A DNA stretch of 64,000 bases from Owenia fusiformis. Its lineage: Eukaryota > Annelida > Polychaeta > Sabellida > Oweniidae. How positions within the stretch are numbered: position 1 is the first letter of the stretch; the number at the start of each line of letters is the position of its first letter. Both the position numbers and the translations under genes were made by a program. Where the stretch lies: the NCBI GenBank assembly GCA_903813345.2, contig CAIIXF020000004.1, positions 16,911,513 through 16,975,512 of the forward strand, written 5' to 3'. The notes under the pieces were generated by a model. It searched no databases, was not told where the DNA came from, and saw only the letters and a list, made by a program, of their open reading frames with translations. Positions 8,946 to 58,617 of this stretch are shown in pieces.

Positions 8946-9640
8946 GACTGCTGAATAATAGTGACCTTTGGAACACGAATTAAGTTGATCCGCGGCTTAC
9001 TTTCGTTCTCTAACTATGTCATACATCATTATCATCCTTCCGTGCAAGTATTGGAGCGCTGAAGTACTTCCTTTTCGATCGAGACTTTGTAATTGTTAGT
9101 CCAGTGAATGTTTTTTTTCTGCCAAATTCCAATATGGCGATTTCTGCTCGGACATTTTCGTAAATCTCGAACCTAACTCATTCTCAAACGGACCTTTTAC
9201 ACCCTCCATTGGGATCTCCCCATGGGAAAAAAATAATTCATCTGATTTTTCAAAATGAGTATTCTGCTTCAATTATTACATTTATATGCACACTGGTATC
9301 TTGTTGACCTATAGTCAGCACTGTATTGATGTATAGGCCACTTATTAGGGTCATAATTCAATCATGAAGTGTAGAGGCATAGATTCCAAACCAGGAAGTA
9401 TTTTTGTGTCTGTCAAAATCCATTTACATCCTACGCATCCCTGCATCTTATCCAAATATGTTACTACATAATGAAATATAATAGTATAATCTTTGGTTTT
9501 ACAAACTTGTATGATATTTGATAAGTGTAAAAGTTGTTTTTGGAGCATTTTTCTATAGCCATTTTGTAGGGAAAAAAATGATGAAAAAATGTACAATCTT
9601 TTAATTTTAAGTATGACCTGAATCGATTGCAAACTTCATA
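8946..9640 (+). repeat. Left arm of a 10 kb inverted-repeat structure
   Basis: GCAAGTATTGGAGCGCTGAA near 9046 and CTGAATCGATTGCAAACTT near 9618 recur inverted at about 19113 and 18704. The arm contains CCAATATGGC, also matched on the right. The middle of the arm (9240-9600) is less alike. It brackets the tandem array and the foldback element. Confidence 0.75.
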
Positions 9641-9689
9641 TTTGCACATTTGATGAGATAAACCATTTGTGTCGTATTGTGAAATTATT

Positions 9690-12600
9690 AGACTCCAGAT
9701 GAAAATCTGGAGTCTATTGCTTTTGCCAGTTTTCTTTATTATTATTATTATTATTAGACTCCAGATGAAAATCTGGAGTCTATTGCTTTCGTCAGTTTTC
9801 TTTATTATTATTAGACTCCAGATGTAAATCTGGAGTCTATTGTTTTCGTCAGTATTCTTATTCTTATTATTATTATTCTTTGTTTATTATTCTTTCCCAG
9901 TTTTCTCGTTAACTAGAAGATATTGAGTCAAGTCCTATATATGGTCCATTTAGGTCCTAGATGTAGTTTCTCGGAAATTGGGTCAAATTTTTATCTAGGT
10001 CAAAGGTCAAGAACTAGGTCAAATCCAGTACTTTGTCACTTTTTTCGATTTTCTCGGTCGTCCTTTAATATTTTCGATCCGGGTTTTTTTCATTGTGTTC
10101 CTTATAAAAAAGTAGGAAACCTAGGGTCGATTTAGTTTTTTGATATCTCAAACCGATTTCGAGATATCAGTGTCCGAAAACGAGGTCCAAAACAAAGTTC
10201 TCCGAATCAAATGTCCAGGATATTAGTCTTATAGAAAATTTTCTCAGGATTCCGAATCTGAAAACGAAATTTGGATCTGACTACCAGTTCGGAAGTTATG
10301 GCGTTTTGAAAACTCAAAAATCGCTAAATTTGGTGCCCATGTTAAGTCAATGGGAAAAAATATTTTTTTGAAGTGAAAAATACGGAATATAGACTGAGTT
10401 CAGCTTCATATAATCAAAGCTTTTAAAAGAAGGGGACCTCAAAAGCCATCTAGCTTCACAATTTGGACACCGAAATGCCTAGGTCAAAATCTAGGTCAAA
10501 TTCATAGGTTTTCCTTATTTTTTCGATTCTGACACTACACTTTAATTATATTCTTCGAAATTGTGTATACATGTAGCTAAGAATATGCTAATAGTGTTAG
10601 CCTTTTGCCGTCAGAAAGTATTTTGACCCACTTTTGAGATATGGTGTCCGAAAAGTAGGTCAAAATAAAAAGTTCTCCAAATTTGACGTTTGAGTTATGA
10701 ATTAAGTATAAAATTTTCTCAGGAATCCGAATCTGCAAACCAAATTTCGATCCGACTCCAGGTTCGGAAGTTATGGCGTGTCCGAAAAGTAGGTCAAAAT
10801 AAAAAATCTCCAAATTTAACGTATGAGTTATGAATTAGGGGTAGAATTTTGTCAGGAATCCGAATCTGCAAACCAAATTTCGATCCGACTTCCGGTTCGG
10901 AAGTGATAGCGTTTTGAAATTTCGAGAAAAATCGATCTGATGGTATCCTGATAGAAAGTCAAGAGTAGAGAAGAAAATATTGAAAAATTCATCCATCCTT
11001 CCTATCTCATCCTACCCTATCCTTCCTATCTATCCTTCCTTCATATCTTTTCCTTCCTATCCTTCCTATCCTATCCTATCCTTTCTTCCTATTCTATTCT
11101 ATCCTATCCTTCTTTCTTATTCTATCCTATCGTTCTTTCCTATTCTATCCTACCTTCCTATTTTATTTATCCATCTCTTTCTAGATGACTCAGCTTATTC
11201 TGGATGACTCGGCTTATTCTGGATGACTCGGCTAAAAAAAAAGTCTAGATCTGGAGTCTGAAATTGAACTTCGTTCAATTTCCAAAATCTAGTTATTATT
11301 ATTCTTTCAGAATCTTCCTCCTTCCCAGATTTCTCACCAACTAAAAGAATTTACTTTAAGCTGCTTACATGATCAACTAGGGGCAGTACCTGGGATGATG
11401 GGAAATTAGGTCAAATTTTTATCTAGGTCAAGGGTCAAGAACTAGGTCAAATCAAGGTCAAATCAACATTCTGTCAATTATCTTCGTTGTTGTTTGTCGT
11501 AACTACTTCATCTTAGTTTCTACATGTAGCTTAGAAAAAAACAAATCGAGAGTGTGCCATCCGTTTTTTGATTACTCTTAGCGATTTTGAGATATGGCGT
11601 CCTGAAAGTAGGTCAAAACCAAAAAGTTCTCCAGATTTAACATATGAGCTATGAAATAAGGGTAGAATTTTCTCAGGAATCCGAATCTGCAAACCAAATT
11701 TTGATCCGACTTCCCGTTCGGAAGTTATGGCGTTTTGAAAGCTCAAAAATCGCTAAATTTGGTGCCCCATGTAAAGTCAATGGGAAAAAAGATTTTTTTG
11801 AAGTGAAAAATACGAAACATAGACTGAGTTCAGCTAAATATAATGAAAGCTTTTAAAAGAAGGGGACCTCATAAGCCATCTAGCTTCAAAATTTGGACAC
11901 CAAAATGCCTAGGTCAAAATCTAGGTCAAATTCAAAGTTTTTCCTTATTTTTGCGATTCTGACACAACAGATTAATTATATTCTTCGAAATTTTGTATAC
12001 ATGTAGCTAAGAATCTGCTCATAGTGTTAGCCTTTTGCCGTCAGAAAGTATTTTGCCCCATTTTTGAGATATGGTGTCCGAAAAGTAGGTCAAAATAAAA
12101 AATTCTCAAAATTTGACGTTTGAGTTATGAATTAAGTATAGAATTTTCTCAGGAATCCGAATCTGCAAACCAAATTTCGATCCGACTTCCGGTTTGGAAG
12201 TTATGGCGTGTCCGAAAAGTAGGTCAAAATAAAAAAGTTTCAAATTTAACGTATGAGCTATGAATTAAGGATAGAATTTTCTCTGGAATCCAAATCTGCA
12301 AACCAAATTTCGATCCGACTTCCGGTTCGGAAGTTATGGCGTTTTGAAAGCTCAAAAATCGCTAAATTTGGTACCCCATGTTATGTCAATGGGAAAAAAT
12401 ATTTTTTTGAAGTGTAAAATACGAGATATAGACTAAGTACAGCTAAACATAATGGAAGCCCATAAAAGAAGGGGACCTCAAAACCTTCTAATCTTGAAAA
12501 TTTGGACAACAAAATGCCTAGGTCAAAATCTAGGTCAAATTCAAAGCTTTTCCTTATTTTTGCGATTCTGACACTACACTTTAATTATATTCTTCGAAAT

Positions 12601-13710
12601 TGTGTATACATGTAACCAAGAGTGTGCTAATAGTGTTAGCCTTTTGCCGTCAAAAAGTATTTTGCCCCACTTTTGAGATATGGTGTCCCAAAAGTAGGTC
12701 AAAATAAAAAAATCTTCAAATGTAACGTATGAGTTATGAATAATGGGTAGAATTTTATCAGGAATCCGAATCTGCAAATCAAATTTTGATTCGACCTCCT
12801 GTTCGGAAGTTATGGTGTTTTGAAAGCTCAAAAATCGCTAAATTTGGTGCCCCATGTTATGTCAATGGGAAAAAATATTTTTTTGAAGTGTAAAATACGA
12901 GATATAGACTGAGTACAGCTTAATATAATGAAAGCCTATCAAAGAAGGGGACCTCGAAGGCTACTTAGCTCCAAAATTTGGACACCAAAATGCCTAGGTC
13001 AAAATCTAGGTCAAATTTATAGTTTTCCCTTATTTTTGCGATTCTGACATTATATTTAAATGATTTGCTTTAAAATTTTGTATACAGGTAGCAAAGAGTA
13101 TGCTAATAGTGTAAGCGTTTTGCCGTCAGAAAGTATTTTGACCCACTTTTGAGATATGGTGTCCGAAAAGTAGGCCAAAGTTAAAAGTTTTCCAAATTTA
13201 ACGTATGAGTTATGAATTAAGGGTAGAATTTTCTCAGAAATCTAGATCTGCAAACCAAATTTCGATCCGACTACTTGTCCTGGAGTTATGGCGTTTTGAA
13301 ATCTCAAAAATCGCTAAATTTGGTGCCCAATGTTAAATCAATGGGACCGAATAATTTTTTGAAGTATATAAATACGAGATATAGAATGAGTACAGCTAAA
13401 CATAATGAAAGCCCATAGAAGAAGGGGACCTCAAAAGCTACTTTCCTTCAAAGTTTGGACACCAAAATACCTAGTTCAAAATCTAGGTCAAATTCATAGT
13501 TTTTTTATTTTGCGATTCTGACACTACACTTCAATGATATTCTCCGAAATTTTGTAAACTTGTAGCAAAGAGTGTGCTAATAATGTTAACGTTTTGCCGT
13601 CAATAAGTTTTTTGACCCACTTTTGAGATATGGTGTCCGAAATGTAGGTCAAAATAAAAAGTTCTCCAATTTTAAAGTATGAGTTATGAATTAGGGGTAG
13701 AATTTCCTCA
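9690..13710 (+). repeat. Tandem array of about 470-bp units, left block
   Basis: Starts with three copies of a short unit containing AGACTCCAGATGAAAATCTG (9690, 9755, 9810). Larger units follow, recognised by recurring blocks: CCTAGGTCAAAATCTAGGTC, GCCTTTTGCCGTCAGAAAGT, GATCCGACTTCCGGTTCGGA and GCTCAAAAATCGCTAAATTT. Adjacent units start about 470-600 bp apart (near 11918, 12520, 12990 and 13465); the longer ones carry an internal duplication of about 130 bp. A pyrimidine microsatellite (CCTATCCTTC type) sits at 10985-11165. No coding frame is conserved between units. Confidence 0.85.
10985..11165. repeat. CCTATCCTTC pyrimidine microsatellite
   Basis: Degenerate runs of TATCC, TTCC and TATTC words inside the larger array. 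The purine/pyrimidine strand bias is complete over long stretches. Confidence 0.9.
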
Positions 13711-13720
13711 GGAATCCGGA
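13711..13720. repeat. Left 10-bp target duplication of the foldback element
   Basis: GGAATCCGGA here is repeated at 16393-16402, directly outside the two ends of the foldback transposon. Joining the two flanks restores an ordinary unit of the array. Confidence 0.9.
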
Positions 13721-13734
13721 GGGTGTCTACAAAA

Positions 13735-14885
13735 CTAAGACCTAAGACCTAAGACCTACAAAACTAAGACCCCTACGTAATAAAACTAAGACCCTGTTAT
13801 AAAACTAAGACCCCCACGTTATAAAACTAAGACCCTGTTATAAAACTAAGACCCCCCACGTAATAAAACTAAGACCCTGTTATAAAACTAAGACCCCCCA
13901 CGTAATAAAACTAAGACCCTGTTATAAAACTAAGACCCCCACGTAATAAAACTAAGACCCTGTTATAAAACTAAGACCCCTCACGCTATAAAACTAAGAC
14001 CCCCCACGTAATAAAACTAAGACCCTGTTATAAAACTAAGACCCCCCACGTTATAAAACTAAGACCCTGTTATAAAACTAAGACCCCCCACGTAATAAAA
14101 CTAAGACCCTGTTATAAAACTAAGACCCCCCACGTAATAAAACTAAGACCCTGTTATAAAACTAAGACCCTCCACGTAATAAAACTAAGACCCTCCACGT
14201 AATAAAACTAAGACCCTGTTATAAAACTAAGACCCCCCACGTTTTAAAACTAAGACCCTGTTATAAAACTAAGACCCCCCACGTAATAAAACTAAGACCC
14301 TGTTATAAAACTAAGACCCCCCACGTAATAAAACTAAGACCCTGTTATAAAACTAAGACCCTCCACGTAATAAAACTAAGACCCTGTTATAAAACTAAGA
14401 CCCCCCACGTTATAAAACTAAGACCCTGTTATAAAACTAAGACCCCCCACGTAATAAAACTAAGACCCTGTTATAAAACTAAGACCCCCCACGTAATAAA
14501 ACTAAGACCCTGTTATAAAACTAAGACCCCCCCACGTTTTAAAACTAAGACCCTGTTATAAAACTAAGACCCCCCACGTAATAAAACTAAGACCCTGTTA
14601 TAAAACTAAGACCCCCCACGTAATAAAACTAAGACCCTGTTATAAAACTAAGACCCTCCACGTAATAAAACTAAGACCCTGTTATAAAACTAAGACCCCC
14701 CACGTTATAAAACTAAGACCCTGTTATAAAACTAAGACCCCCCACGTAATAAAACTAAGACCCTGTTATAAAACTAAGACCCCCCCCCACGTTATAAAAC
14801 TAAGACCCTGTTATAAAACTAAGACCCCCCACGTTGTAAAACTAAGACCCTGTTATAAAACTAAGACCCTGTTATAAAACTAAGA
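13735..14885 (+). repeat. Left minisatellite arm of foldback element
   Basis: Roughly 27 copies of a 42-bp dimer (one CCCTGTT half and one CCCCCCACGTA half). The C-run length varies from unit to unit and a few units carry CACGTT in place of CACGTA. Confidence 0.9.
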
Positions 14886-15516
14886 ATCAATCATCGTGCC
14901 TTGCTCTGCTCGCGAGGTAGTCTTGCCTCTGGCACATGTGTTCCCCAGTAACATACAGATTCTACAAAAGATAGTCTTATAGATATAGATATAAAGATTA
15001 GCTTAAGGTCTTGGAGAAGTTATTCGAAATTTACACCAAACAGGAAATGAAAAAACCATGTGATTTTAGATTTTTTGAACTAAGATAGCAGAGTTCTGCT
15101 TTGATCTTCTGTCATTTTTACTACTCCCATTTATCATTTACATGACCAGGATCACAATGGTCATGTCAAAATGACTCAACCATGCTGAAATGGTTTTTCA
15201 GCCCTCTGAAAATGTGACTGAAAAAAAGTTAAAAGTAAGGGTATCGGTAAGGTCACTGAACATAATATTTTGATTTTTTCAGAAAATGTGCCCAATATAT
15301 TGCTTCAAATGATAGGAGCTTTGAAAATAAGAAAAATTGTCTGAAACAAAAATTGTGGTCAGATAAAGGAAAATAGACCTCTTTTCAAATAATTTTTTCA
15401 TTTTTTTTCATTTTTTCTCTAGACTATTTCTAGAAATTTAATCAAAATTTCAAAGCTCCTATCATTTAGAGCAATATGTTGGACACATTTTCTGAAAAAT
15501 TCAAAATATTCTGGGG

Positions 15517-16385
15517 GGGTCTTAGTTTTATAACAGGGTCTTAGTTTTATTACGTGGGGGTCTTAGTTTTGTAACAGTGTCTAAGTTTTATAACGTGGGG
15601 GTCTTAGTTTTATAACAGGGTCTTAGTTTTATTACGTGGGGGGGGGTCTTAGTTTTATAACAGGGTCTTAGTTTTATAACGTGGGGGGTCTTAGTTTTAT
15701 AACAGGGTCTTAGTTTTATTACGTGGGGGGTCTTAGTTTTATAACGTGAGGGGTCTTAGTTTTATAACAGGGTCTTAGTTTTATAACGTGGGGGGTCTTA
15801 GTTTTGTAACAGGGTCTTAGTTTTATAACGTGGGGGGTCTTAGTTTTATAACAGGGTCTTAGTTTTATAACGTGGGGGGGTCTTAGTTTTATTACGTGGG
15901 CGGTCTTAGTTTTATAACAGGGTCTTAGTTTTATTACGTGGAGGGTCTTAGTTTTATTACGTGGAGGGTCTTAGTTTTATAACGTGGGGGGTCTTAGTTT
16001 TATAACAGGGTCTTAGTTTTATTACGTGGGGGTCTTAGTTTTATAACAGGGTCTTAGTTTTATAACGTGGGGGGGTCTTAGTTTTATAACAGGGTCTTAG
16101 TTTTATAACGTGGGGGGTCTTAGTTTTATAACAGGGTCTTAGTTTTATAACGTGGGGGGGTCTTAGTTTTATTACGTGGGTGGTCTTAGTTTTATAACAG
16201 GGTCTTAGTTTTATAACGTGGGGGTCTTAGTTTTATAACAGGGTCTTAGTTTTATTACATGGGGGGTCTTAGTTTTATAACAGGGTCTTAGTCTTATAAC
16301 ATGGGGGGTCTTAGTTTTATAACAGGGTCTTAGTTTTATTACGTGGGGGGTCTTAGTTTTGTAGGTCTTAGGTCTTAGTTTTGTA
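15517..16385 (-). repeat. Right minisatellite arm of foldback element (inverted)
   Basis: The reverse complement of the left arm units (GTCTTAGTTTTATAACAGGG alternating with GTGGGGGGTCTTAG forms). It is shorter than the left arm by about 280 bp, so the arms are unequal. Confidence 0.9.
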
Positions 16386-16392
16386 GACACCC

Positions 16393-18700
16393 GGAATCCG
16401 GATCTGAAATCAAAATTGCAATCCGACCCCCGGTTTAGATTCTACGCCATTTTGAAGTTTGAAATTCGCACTTGCCAGTATTCACGATGCAGATTGATCA
16501 AATATACTTTCAAAAATTCCTGCATACCCTACTTTACCTCTCTACCTACTCAGCTACTTATTTGACTACTTACTCAATTACTTAATTAGTTATTACTTAC
16601 TTAGCAACTTACTCAGCTACTAACTCAGATACTTACTAAGCTACTTACTCAGCTACCTACTCAGCTATTTACTCAGTTACTTACTCAGCTACTTACTCAA
16701 CTACTACTAAGGTACTTACTCAGCTAATTACTCAGTTACTTACTCAGCTCTTTACTGATCTATCTAGGTAAAATAAATCTGGAGTCTTAAATTGAACTTG
16801 TTCAATTTCACAAATCTAGTTATTATTCTTCTTCTTCCTCCTTCCCAGATTTCTCACCAACTAGAAGAGCTTACTTTAAGCTGCTTACATGATCAACTAG
16901 GGAATGTATCTGGCTTTCTGGGAAATTAGGTCAAATTTTTATCTAGGTCAAAGGTCAAGAACTAGGTCAAATCCAGTACTTTGTCACTTTTTTCAATTTT
17001 CTCGGTCGTCCTTCAATATTTTCAATCCGGGTTTTTTTCATTGTGTTCCTCATAAAAAAGTAGGGGAAAACAGGTCGATTTAGTTTTTTGATATCTCAAA
17101 CCGATTTCGAGATATCAGTGTCCGAAAACGAGGTCCAAAAAAAAGTTCTCCCAATTCAATGTCCACGCTACTGGTCTTGTAGGAACTTTTCTCAGGATTC
17201 CGAATCTGAAAACCAAATTTCGATCCGACTTCCGGTTCGGAAGTTATATCGTTTTGAAAGCTCAAAAATCGCTAAATTTGGTGCCCATGTTAAGTCAATG
17301 GGAAAAAAGATTTTTTTGAAGTGAAAAATACGAAATATAGACTGAGTTCAGCTAAATATAATGGAAGCTTTTAAAAGAAGGGGACCTCAAAAGCCATCTA
17401 GCTTAAAAATTTGGACACAAAAATGCCAAGGTCAAAATCTAGGTCAAATTCAAAGTTTTTCCTTATTTTTGCGATTCTGACACTACACTTTAATTATATT
17501 CTTCGAAATCGTGTATACATGTAGCCAAGAGTGTGCTAATAGTGTTAGCCTTTTGCCGTCAGGAAGTATTTTGACCCACTTTTGAGATATGGTGTCCCAA
17601 AAGTAGGTCAAAATAAAAAAATCTTCAAATTTAACTTATGAGTTATGAATCAGGGGTAGAATTTTGTCAGGAATCCGAATCTGCAAACCATATTTCGATC
17701 CGACTTCCGGTTCGGAAGTTATGGCGTGTCCAAAAAGTAGGTCAAAATAAAAAAATTCTAAATTTATCGTATGAGTTATGAATTAGGGGAAGAATTTTAT
17801 CAGGAATCCGAATCTGCAAACCAAATTTCGATTCGACATCTTGTTCAGAAGTTATGATGTTTTGAAAGCTCAAAAATCGCTAAATTTGGTGCCCCATGTT
17901 AAATCAATGGGACCGAATAATTTTTTGAAGTGTAAAAATACAAGATATAGAATGAGTACAGCTAAACATAATGAAAGCCCATAAAAGAAGGGGACCTCAA
18001 AACCTACTTTCCTTCAAAATTTGGACACCAAAATACCTAGTTCAAAATCTAGGTCAAATTCTTAGTTTTTTCTTATTTTTGCAATTCGGACACTACACTT
18101 CAATGATATTCTTCGAAATTTTGTATACATGTAGCAAAGAGTGTGCTTATAATGTTAACTTTTTGCCGTCAAGAAGTTTTTAGGCCCACTTTTGAGATCT
18201 GGTGATCGAAATGTAGGTCAAAATAAAAAGTTCTCCAAATTTAACGTATGAGTTATGAATTAGGGGCATAATTTCCTAAGGAATCCGGATCTGAAATTAA
18301 AATTGCAATCCTACCCCCAGTTAAGCCATTTTGAAGTTTGAAATTCGCACTTGCCAGTATTCACGATGCAGATTGATCAAATAAACTTTCAAAAATTCCT
18401 ACATACCCTACTTTACCTCCCTACCTACTCAGCTACTTATTTGACTACTTACTCAATTGCTTAATTAGTTATTACTTACTTAGCTACTCACTCAGCTACT
18501 AACTCAGGTACTTACTCAGCTACTTACTCAGCTACCTACTCAGCTTTTTACCCAGTTACTTACTCAGCTACTTACTCAACTACTACTAAGGTACTTACTC
18601 AGCTAATTACTCAGTTACTTACTCAGCTCTTTACTGATCTATCTAGGTAAAATAAATCTGGAGTCTTAAATTGAACTTGTTCAATTTCACAAATCTAGTT
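16393..18700 (+). repeat. Tandem array of about 470-bp units, right block
   Basis: Continues the array after the foldback insertion in the same orientation as the left block. Near 16817 TCTTCCTCCTTCCCAGATTT restarts the higher-order unit, also found near 11310. Two stretches of TACTCAGCTACT-type repeats (16530-16750 and 18415-18640) each precede TAAATTGAACTTGTTCAATT, which marks the end of each higher-order unit. Confidence 0.85.
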
Positions 18701-19225
18701 AAGTTTGCAATCGATTCAGGTCATAGTGTATTTTTGGTATTTCTGTGATAATCAATGGAAACCAATGGCCTCTATTGGGATCTGCTGATATCCTCATGTG
18801 GAGTCAATGGTACACAGCCCCATGCAAGTCAATACAACCTTACTGGACGAAATGATCCCTATCTCAGCTTATGTGTGTCCGAGCACTTTAATATTTTCCA
18901 AAGTATTATATGACATTTTATTCTTCATGTTACACCTACGAATGATTCATTTTGACCATAGGGATATTTGCCAATAATTGCACATTGTCCTTTATTTCGT
19001 TCGTTGCGTATCTCGCTCCTAGCAAACTGCCATATTGGAAATGGGTCGAAAAATCATTCACTCGATGAACAATTTACAAGTCTTGATCGAAAAAGAAGTA
19101 TTTCAGCGCTCCAATACTTGCACGGATTGATGATACTGATGTAAGACACAGTTAAAGACCAGTAAGCCGCTAATCTCATTATTCATGTTTTAAAGGTCAC
19201 TATTATTCGACTGTCCAAGCGCGCC
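18701..19225 (-). repeat. Right arm of the 10 kb inverted-repeat structure
   Basis: Inverted partner of 8946-9640. AAGTTTGCAATCGATTCAGG begins immediately after the last array unit, and the pairing ends near ATAGTGACCTTT (about 19190-19220). Confidence 0.75.
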
Positions 19226-41160: not shown

Positions 41161-42370
41161 CAAGGGAAAGATCAATACCCGGTGATTTCAGCGGGAAGTG
41201 GCGTTTCGTTCATTGGATGAGCTGCGCGCGCACGCATAAATGTGATTATCCAATATAATTAGGGGAGGGCTATTTGAAGTAGTTTTTGGTCTCAGGCGCG
41301 ACCCAGGGCTGTTGTCTTAAGGACATTTCGTTGAAAATGAGCCATTCGGCTGATAATTGGTAAGAGTTTGCGATCTTATAATGTATAACTGTTACTCAGA
41401 CACATATTTTGACACGATTCTGTTGGAAATAAGCTTTGAACCGAGAGATATTCACGATTGATATGCACATTTTTGATTGTGCCATTGCTTTTCTATTGCA
41501 CAACCCATGTATTGATAGAAGAAACATTAATAATACAGATTGGTTTACCTTCAATACATGGCAGACACTACATATCGGTCTATTAATACCAGTTTGTGCC
41601 TTAAATAGTTTTATATTTCCATCCACGGCCTGGAGCCCTGGGTGTGTTTGTCTCTTATGTGTATGCTTGTGCATGGACTTCTTATCACTAGCAGAATTTA
41701 ACATGATGCAAACTCGACATTATAACTCATGCTGTAACATTTTGACTTCGCTGGAAAACAATAGGAATTATTTTTCTTGCCAATCAATCATGAATCACAA
41801 TCAAAATTTCAGAATGATCAATCAGGCAATGATCCAAATCAAGTTATAACATTATATGATATTCAGCAAGAAGTCCGGTAGAAATACAGATATAACTAAA
41901 ATAAACATCAAAGCTGAAAGTTAAAAGCTAATCTGTCAATTTTCTGTCTGCAAAAGAGCGTCCCAAGAGCGTTTACATTTGACACAATAACAGACTGAGG
42001 CCTTGAAATCTAGGATTCCCCAGGAAAATATGACGTCATACTAATTAGCATAAGGATTTCCCTATTGGGGTGGGTCGAGCCTTGTTCGAAAACACAATCC
42101 ATAAATACATGCTAATTTCTAAGGAGATAGGAAGTGTATAACGTGTTTATCGATTTTGTTTAAATATTTAATCAATTATCAAATTGTTTAAGTGGATAAA
42201 GTGGTCACACTTGCTTCAATTCATAGCGAAATCGACGGATAGAAACTGACCGAATTCCCGATATCCTACCCCGTATTACTGTAGGCTATAAGCACAGTGA
42301 CCTACAGAGGGCGCTATCACAAACAAGTACTGGACGAACCGATAAATTCCCGGGTATTGTAACGCCCTTG
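41161..42370 (+). mobile_element. 1.2 kb element with CAAGGG ends, 7-bp duplication (copy 1)
   Basis: Starts CAAGGGAAAGATCAATACCC and ends with GGGTATTGTAACGCCCTTG, an imperfect inverted pair. It is flanked by GTTAAAG on both sides (41154-41160, 42371-42377). A near-identical copy lies inverted at 57426-58617. No transposase is recognised; the 137-codon frame at 41436-41849 is shortened in the other copy and looks like chance. A 7-bp duplication is unusual. P-like or Dada-like elements are possible. Confidence 0.88.
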
Positions 42371-57425: not shown

Positions 57426-58617
57426 CAAGGGCGTTACAATACCCGGGAATTTATCGGTTCGTGCAGTACTTGTTTGTGATAGCGCCCTCTGTAGGTCACT
57501 GTGCTTATAGCCTACAGTAATACGGGGTAGGATATCGGGAATTCGGTCAGTTTCTATCCGTCGATTTCGCTATGAATTGAAGCAAGTGTGACCACTTTAT
57601 CCACTTAAACAATTTGATAATTGATTAAATATTTAAACAAAATCGATAAACACGTTATACACTTCCTATCTCCTTAGAAATTAGCATGTATTTATGGATT
57701 GTGTTTTCGAACAAGGCTCGACCCAAACCAATAGGGAAATCCTTATGCTAATTAGTATGACGTCATATTTTCCTGGGGAATCCTAGATTTCAAAGCCTCA
57801 GTCTGTTATTGTGTCAAATGTAAACGCTCTTTTGCAGACAGAAAATTGACAGATTAGCTTTTAACTTTCAGCTTTGATGTTTAAATATTCTGTATTTCTA
57901 CCGGACTTCTTGCTGAATATCATATAATGTTATAACTTGATTTGGATCATTGCCTGATTGCTCATTCTGAAATTTTGATTGTGATTCATGATTGATTGGC
58001 AAGAAAAATAATTCCTATTGTTTTCCAGCGAAGTCAAAATGTTACAGCATGAGTTATAATGTCGAGTTTGCATCATGTTAAATTCTGCTAGTGATTAGAA
58101 GTCCATGCACAAGCATACACATTAGAGACAAACACACCCAGGCTCCAGGCCGTGGATGGAAATATAAAACTATTTAAGGCACAAACTGGTATTAATAGAC
58201 CGATATGTAGTGTCTGCCATGTATTGAAGGTAAACCAATCTGCATTATTAATGTTTCTTCTATCAATACATGGATTGTGCAATGGAAAAGCAATGGCACA
58301 ATCAAAAATGTGCATATCAATCGTGAATATCTCTCGGTTCAAAGCTTATTTCCAACAGAATCGTGTCAAAATATGTGTCTGAGTAACAGTTATACATTAT
58401 AAGATCGCAAACTCTCACCAATTATCAGCCGAATGGCTCATTTTCAACGAAATGTCCTTAAGACATCAGCCCTGGGTCGCGCCTTAGACCAAAAACTATT
58501 TCAAATAGCCCTCCCCTAATTATATTGGATAATCACATTTATGCGTGCGCGCGCAGCTCATCCACTGAACGAAACGCCACTTCCCGCTGAAATCACCGGG
58601 TATTGATCTTTCCCTTG
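57426..58617 (-). mobile_element. 1.2 kb element with CAAGGG ends, 7-bp duplication (copy 2, inverted)
   Basis: Reverse-complement copy of 41161-42370, flanked by its own 7-bp repeat GTCAATG (57419-57425, 58618-58624). It lies just upstream of the first MAO-like exon, so it may cover promoter sequence. The two copies differ by few substitutions and small gaps. Confidence 0.88.

Follow-up and report, generated by a model that had tools for sequence, protein, structure and literature searches.

Foldback elements occur in flies, sea urchins, nematodes and plants. FB of Drosophila and TU of sea urchin have inverted arms of short direct repeats and produce target duplications of 9 and 8 bp, respectively, and elements of the P superfamily, which includes Galileo, produce duplications of 7 bp. 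For the described systems that follow, here and below, the comparison draws on excerpts of the cited papers. Target duplications measure 8–11 bp in Mutator elements generally, 9 bp in Rehavkus and 8–10 bp in Phantom (PMC6446971). For Tm1, a Mutator/Foldback family of root-knot nematodes (Meloidogyne), duplications of 8–10 bp, mostly 9 bp, are given for 45 of 53 elements (PMC3169594).

The locus described here lies in a stretch of 64,000 nucleotides from the annelid Owenia fusiformis (contig CAIIXF020000004.1), referred to as the window. A first-pass annotation, made from the letters alone, had proposed a foldback transposon composed of inverted 42-bp minisatellites, and this structure is borne out to the base (Table 1). 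The termini are perfect, with the outermost 20-mer GGGTGTCTACAAAACTAAGA exactly inverted between the two ends, both of which read GGGTGTCTACAAAAC. The left arm (1,166 bp) contains 55 unit motifs, all on the plus strand, and the right arm (874 bp) contains 41, all on the minus strand; Tandem Repeats Finder (TRF) describes the left array as 26.3 copies with a period of 42 and 93% match and the right array as 19 copies with 87% match. Each 42-bp unit is dimeric, with halves of 19 and 23 bp, and AAACTAAGACC is present in each half as well as within the terminal sequence of the element. The window element therefore has the long inverted arms of direct repeats that define the foldback class. The 10-bp target duplication that had been claimed is found on both sides, and the empty site, which had been held to be readable, was recovered in two places. 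The joined flanks with one copy of the 10-mer match a second host-repeat copy in the window (17987-18579) at 92.5% over 601 bp and L069:2123-2721 at 99.2% identity over 599 bp. The 10-mer is single at both sites, with one base changed in L069, and because both flank matches are uninterrupted the empty site can be read directly.

Table 1. Positions in the window of the foldback element, its empty site and the surrounding host repeat.
Feature	Position	Strand	Details
Foldback element, whole	13721-16392		2,672 bp
Left copy of target duplication	13711-13720		10 bp, GGAATCCGGA
Left arm	13721-14886	+	terminal GGGTGTCTACAAAACTAAGACC, short TAAGACC repeats, ~26 42-bp dimer units (19 + 23 bp)
Middle domain	14887-15518		632 bp
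Right arm	15519-16392	-	42-bp units inverted relative to left arm, closed by identical perfect terminal sequence
Right copy of target duplication	16393-16402		10 bp, GGAATCCGGA
Paralogous empty site in second host-repeat copy	17987-18579	+	single GGAATCCGGA at 18280-18289
Host repeat block	9684-18698	+	133/476-bp tandem repeats; left limit approximate
Palindromes in host repeat	9690-9838		AGACTCCAGAT...ATCTGGAGTCT
Helitron-type 3' ends of host repeat	16819 and 18698		hairpin, CTAG|T

The family was then followed across a single genome assembly (498 Mb in 525 contigs). The end motif, with up to 2 mismatches allowed, was found 149 times (70 on the plus strand and 79 on the minus strand) against 4 matches of a reversed-pattern control, and the unit-dimer pattern gave 2,893 exact matches against 0 for its reversed control, counts that exclude chance in both cases. 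Another version of the end, in which position 16 is A instead of T, gave 51 exact matches, mostly at the same loci, and none for the control. The end motifs are dispersed in the genome, i.e. the family is not confined to the window. Flanks were compared in 57 pairings, with about 35 of the 149 end motifs falling outside pairing or reading; 17 of these pairings have the flanks of the window element, and the 40 other rows represent 39 independent loci, since the L108 left end was paired with two candidate right ends. Only the ends were read for 17 of these 39 loci, and 21 were read through. Exact 10-bp target duplications flank 36 of the 39 independent loci, and one further locus, L025, has a duplication of 9 bp. 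When flanks from different rows were matched as a control, 0 of 1,560 pairs exceeded 6 bp. The first-pass annotation had looked to ends with 9–10 bp duplications as the means of checking its reading, with copies lacking paired ends or duplications counting against it; of the 38 clearly paired independent copies only L022 lacks a duplication, and the L108 left end has none with either of its candidate partners. This check thus speaks for the most part for the annotation. Dispersed copies with target-site duplications, together with empty sites, are as expected of foldback elements.

Two further insertions, L017 and L086/L087, lie in the host repeat at other positions, and their flanks adjoin without an insert in the host repeat of the window, providing additional empty sites. 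Apart from the 17 copies with the window's flanks, no target common to the insertions was seen among the flanks compared. The arms of independent copies contain from about 10 to 100 putative sites, and dimer length is exactly 42 bp in 609 of 699 dimers from 16 independent elements. Of the 21 independent loci read through, 5 have no middle (L010, L012, L013, L025 and L048), with only ~30–40 bp of one end left in L012 and L025. These loci are still flanked by 9- or 10-bp duplications, and each may have inserted already reduced or been reduced after insertion.

The 17 copies with common flanks, including that of the window, also have a common duplication (exact in 11, with one mismatch in 6). Across flanks and middle they differ pairwise by 0.1–2.1%, with a mean of 1.4% (1,075 aligned columns), and compared with the window copy their middles are 97–99% identical and their flanks 97–100% identical over 220 bp. 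A pair of marker units, counted by eye, can also be seen in the right outer arm of 14 of the 17. All 17, the window copy among them, go back to one insertion event, and the window copy does not represent an insertion of its own. The repeat into which this insertion fell ends in the hairpin AAATTGAAC-TT-GTTCAATTT, next CACAAATCTAG and next a T, with a terminus reading ...TTCAATTTCACAAATCTAG; ATCTGGAGTCT lies near the 3' ends and recurs in palindromes on the left side. A search for this 3' end with up to 2 mismatches found 423 genome copies and none for the control. The hairpin and CTAG were built into the search pattern; in all 26 ends inspected, CTAG is followed by T. The 3' hairpin, CTRR end and insertion before T that characterize Helitrons are found in the host repeat, and the 3' end together with the ATCTGGAGTCT palindromes is what we take to be the anatomy of a Helitron or Helentron. 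The Helitron N-terminal domain has 58 matches in the genome (57 above the cut-off), and open frames of more than 2,000 codons contain 35 of these. Because the host repeat has a Helitron-type 3' end, the 17 copies probably spread as its passengers, and multiplication of the window copy along with this Helitron-like repeat, a point on which the first-pass annotation was silent, is the most likely history.

Arm maps in which each unit was coded by its exact sequence were used to compare the sister copies. The arms had been suspected of instability, and arm lengths among the 17 sisters indeed range from 529 to 3,835 bp at no more than 2.1% divergence, with the reservation that these lengths, like the flips described below, come from a single assembly in which repeats may be misassembled. 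The outermost and innermost units are mostly retained and the centre is variable, with what look like block duplications. Three copies that are only 0.2–0.4% apart in flanks and middle (window, L020 and L042) have left arms of 54, 53 and 36 units. The middle is inverted relative to unchanged flanks in 3 of the 17 copies (L011, L028 and L043). L011 and L043 retain the right outer marker units beside the right flank and have inner marker units swapped between arms, the pattern that recombination between inverted arms should leave; the right outer marker is lost in L028, so the flip in this copy rests on the orientation of its middle. In a tree of the copies, L028 and the unflipped L016 form a pair (support 0.77), and L011/L043 cluster with the unflipped L045 (0.73), a placement that, at modest support, suggests at least two flips. 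The right arm of L026 contains an inverted 133-bp copy of the left flank, adjoining an extra terminal end, an arrangement compatible with template switching between the arms. The flips and the copied flank are strong evidence of recombination between arms in place. Rare unit variants are shared more within than between independent elements (0.44 versus 0.17 shared variants, permutation p = 0.02), but numbers are tiny and no claim of arm homogenisation is based on them.

The first-pass annotation had proposed a search for a longer relative carrying a Mutator-type transposase. The longest independent loci read through measure 14.9 kb (L037+L038) and 14.2 kb (L039+L040), and both were searched by stop-to-stop frames. 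The 14.2-kb copy was rejected as a transposase carrier, its size being due to nested retroelements. Outside a nested element, L037+L038 has minus-strand fragments of a transposase-like gene (joined-locus positions 14099 to 12616). The gene is interrupted by stops and frame changes, its catalytic part is absent and a C-terminal piece is what is left; no other candidate turned up within the family. This piece holds a C-x-C...C-x-H stretch, judged by eye and recall to be of SWIM type, and presumably resembles invertebrate Mutator-type transposases. The broken gene gave no Pfam match at E values up to 1 and does not appear in the list of 31 genomic SWIM matches (E up to 10); its last piece has only one further match in the genome, at 35% identity, and no relatives in a scan of viral contigs. 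No intact transposase was found between family ends in the frames of the two longest copies, with Pfam, with MULE and SWIM domains or in searches of the species' own genome, and the 8 MULE-domain loci of the genome have no 42-bp units within the 3-kb stretches read (1 of the 8 checked partially). A SWIM-type frame at L037:8663-9310 was also discarded as the gene of the foldback element; it belongs to the nested element, a different one with inverted ends of ~190–270 bp, a 9-bp duplication CATCATTTT and an empty site in L039, and its protein showed no homology to the last piece of the broken gene by BLASTP. The 195 bp beside the broken gene are 97.4% identical to positions 14903-15097 of the window, in the middle domain, and of 16 elements compared with L037+L038, the window element alone carries the full stretch. 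It is because of its position beside this shared segment that the broken gene is linked to the foldback family, and on that positional tie a Mutator-like driver is held to be likely, short of proof; the gene could be a captured fragment.

Other explanations of these structures were weighed against this evidence. The arms are tandem arrays and change via recombination, as would a satellite array that a rearrangement had folded or inverted, with no transposon involved, but 36 independent loci with exact 10-bp duplications, along with readable empty sites, leave that reading with practically no chance, and it is regarded as already refuted by the target duplications. Repeated site-specific insertion at one position of the host repeat is a second alternative for the 17 copies, and L017 and L086/L087 do make the host repeat a repeated target, although they struck elsewhere in it. 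The near-identical middles and flanks of all 17 copies, the identical pair of right-outer marker units in 14 of them and the lack of a common target among the other insertions argue against such targeting, which was set aside on flank comparison, arm maps and divergence data and is considered very improbable. The 17 copies may instead have spread with a dispersed satellite, through extrachromosomal circles or ectopic exchange, and not by Helitron transposition. The host repeat forms head-to-tail arrays with internal 3' ends, TTATT follows 19 of the 26 inspected 3' ends and is often the beginning of another repeat copy, and no Rep/helicase gene was tied to the host-repeat 3' end. The CTAG|T boundary is sharp, however, and 7 of the 26 ends continue differently, six of them, judged by eye, into unrelated sequence; there are also 423 dispersed 3' ends, and Helitron proteins are present in the genome. 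This satellite route is possible, with a real though minor chance of being the correct one.

For the foldback element itself, mobilisation by a transposase of another superfamily, such as a P-element relative as in Galileo or a Rehavkus-type enzyme, would make the arms convergent. Foldback structures have arisen in several superfamilies, according to the excerpts compared (PMC4079207; PMC3573991), and no intact driver was found for this family in the searches above. Against this, the 10-bp duplication lies within the 8–11 bp of the Mutator (MULE) superfamily, unlike the 9 bp of Rehavkus (PMC6446971), and the transposase-like piece has, by eye and recall, the SWIM-type stretch, so that another superfamily appears unlikely. 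We regard with considerable confidence a non-autonomous, Mutator-type foldback DNA transposon with recombining arms as the best explanation, the window copy deriving from one insertion that spread with a Helitron-like host. The element would be cut at its GGGTGTC ends by a transposase supplied in trans, and insertion would proceed via a staggered cut of 10 bp. The 42-bp units most likely arose by amplification of the subterminal end motif AAAACTAAGACC; after insertion they expand, shrink and recombine between the inverted arms, sometimes flipping the middle and possibly removing it. The ancestor of the window copy inserted into a tandem repeat of the Helitron-like element and was probably multiplied as that element spread. 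The ends, duplications, empty sites, common insertion, changes in arm length and, within one assembly, the flips are direct observations; the Mutator transposase, its action in trans, the Helitron as carrier, the units as binding sites and the molecular route behind each arm change are inferred.

A more tentative proposal, which we consider rather doubtful, is that each arm offers the transposase a series of binding sites in helical phase and that each inserted copy is an invertible switch, its middle flipped by arm recombination; a dimer of 42 bp, about four turns of DNA, suits phased sites of this kind yet does not demonstrate binding. If true, the 17 host-borne descendants would constitute a natural replicate experiment on the survival and rearrangement of a giant genomic hairpin in a eukaryote. 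The change of a kilobase inverted repeat can be read here against point divergence: arm lengths shift by hundreds of bases at a divergence of 0.1–2.1% in flanks and middle. The findings also suggest a cut-and-paste element multiplying as a rider in a Helitron-like repeat, in which case copy number alone would overstate transposition.

Foldback elements as a kind are already known, and the family is notable among them for its near-uniform 10-bp duplications and for the 17 copies from a single insertion; within the literature searched by full text with its terminal and unit sequences, no publication names the element, and the 5 papers containing one of these sequences appear from their titles to be unrelated. 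Its likeness to FB and TU lies in the general architecture of the arms, and its 10-bp duplication differs from the 7 bp of the P superfamily and the 9 bp of Rehavkus. Phantom and Rehavkus are comparable as Mutator-related animal elements, some with minisatellites, and Rehavkus has in addition a PHD finger and a minisatellite placed before its 3' end (PMC6446971, in excerpt). Galileo has long inverted ends that vary in length and are unequal between the two ends of one copy, for which recombination and recruitment have been proposed, and its repeats have been proposed as additional transposase sites; it has a P-superfamily transposase and ~210-bp repeats in up to three copies in the group described, and a flipped middle like that of the Owenia sister copies does not appear in the part of the text compared (PMC3573991). 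Among the literature compared, as excerpted, Tm1 and Tetris are nearest in structure. Tm1 has composite inverted arms with a variable number of short motifs, some elements without a transposase, a Mutator-like driver and no clear target consensus (PMC3169594). Its terminal 7-bp motifs are asymmetric and its unit is ~14 bp, whereas the Owenia element has symmetric ends, a 42-bp dimer, arms of up to 3.8 kb and a duplication of 10 bp in 36 of 39 loci. Tetris of Drosophila virilis resembles it in the tandem repeats inside inverted ends, the 8–10 bp duplications, the lack of an intact transposase among the copies found and the link to satellite-like arrays (PMC4079207). In Tetris, which seeds satellites, an outer flanking domain as long as 866 bp precedes the ~220-bp units, whereas the Owenia element, a passenger in another repeat, has its units directly after ~45 bp of terminal sequence.

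A second minisatellite, with a unit of about 75 bp, lies directly inward of the 42-bp foldback arm, for example in the family locus L035. It was found in the 15 other foldback elements compared with the longest copy (L037 and L038), and in the longest copy itself it occurs on both sides, inverted. Two insertions were also seen in L037, the larger being a nested 5.7-kb element whose inverted ends begin GGCTTTGTATAAAAAACC, with a 9-bp target duplication (CATCATTTT) and a piece of a SWIM-type protein inside, and the other measuring about 950 bp, with inverted CACTGTTGCTCATAAAT ends and a TA target. The second-longest copy (L039 and L040) contains the empty site for the larger element, and its matching stretch is free of the CACTGTTGCTCATAAAT-ended insertion.

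No 42-bp foldback units were found near the MULE-domain frames of L052 and L054. In L052, the one of the two scanned for domains, the frame also contained FLYWCH and a weak PHD-finger match below the cut-off.

Coordinates of repeats, insertions and open frames
Feature	Sequence	Positions	Details
Host repeat	window	9684-18698	tandem units 133/476 bp
Host repeat 3' ends	window	16819; 18698
25-bp inverted repeat	window	9612-9636; 18701-18725	TATGACCTGAATCGATTGCAAACTT
1.2-kb repeat pair	window	41161-42370; 57426-58617	97% identity
~75-bp minisatellite	L035	1439-1805
Nested element	L037	3754-9474
Its empty site	L039	near 1152-1160
~950-bp insertion	L037	about 1150-2103
MULE-domain frame	L052	469-2319	617 codons
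MULE-domain frame	L054	469-2319	617 codons

Elsewhere in the window, the members of a 1.2-kb repeat pair stand in opposite orientations, 15 kb apart.

The 25-bp inverted repeat is present at both borders of the host block that carries the window's foldback copy, as if the block had inserted into a small hairpin present beforehand. Helitron N-terminal domains gave 58 matches across the genome, 35 of them within open frames of >2,000 codons, 25 of which are outside the twelve large contigs. Both 3' ends of the host repeat consist of a hairpin and a terminal CTAG followed by T; 423 such ends were counted genome-wide, frequently arranged head to tail. The host repeat is Helitron- or Helentron-like.
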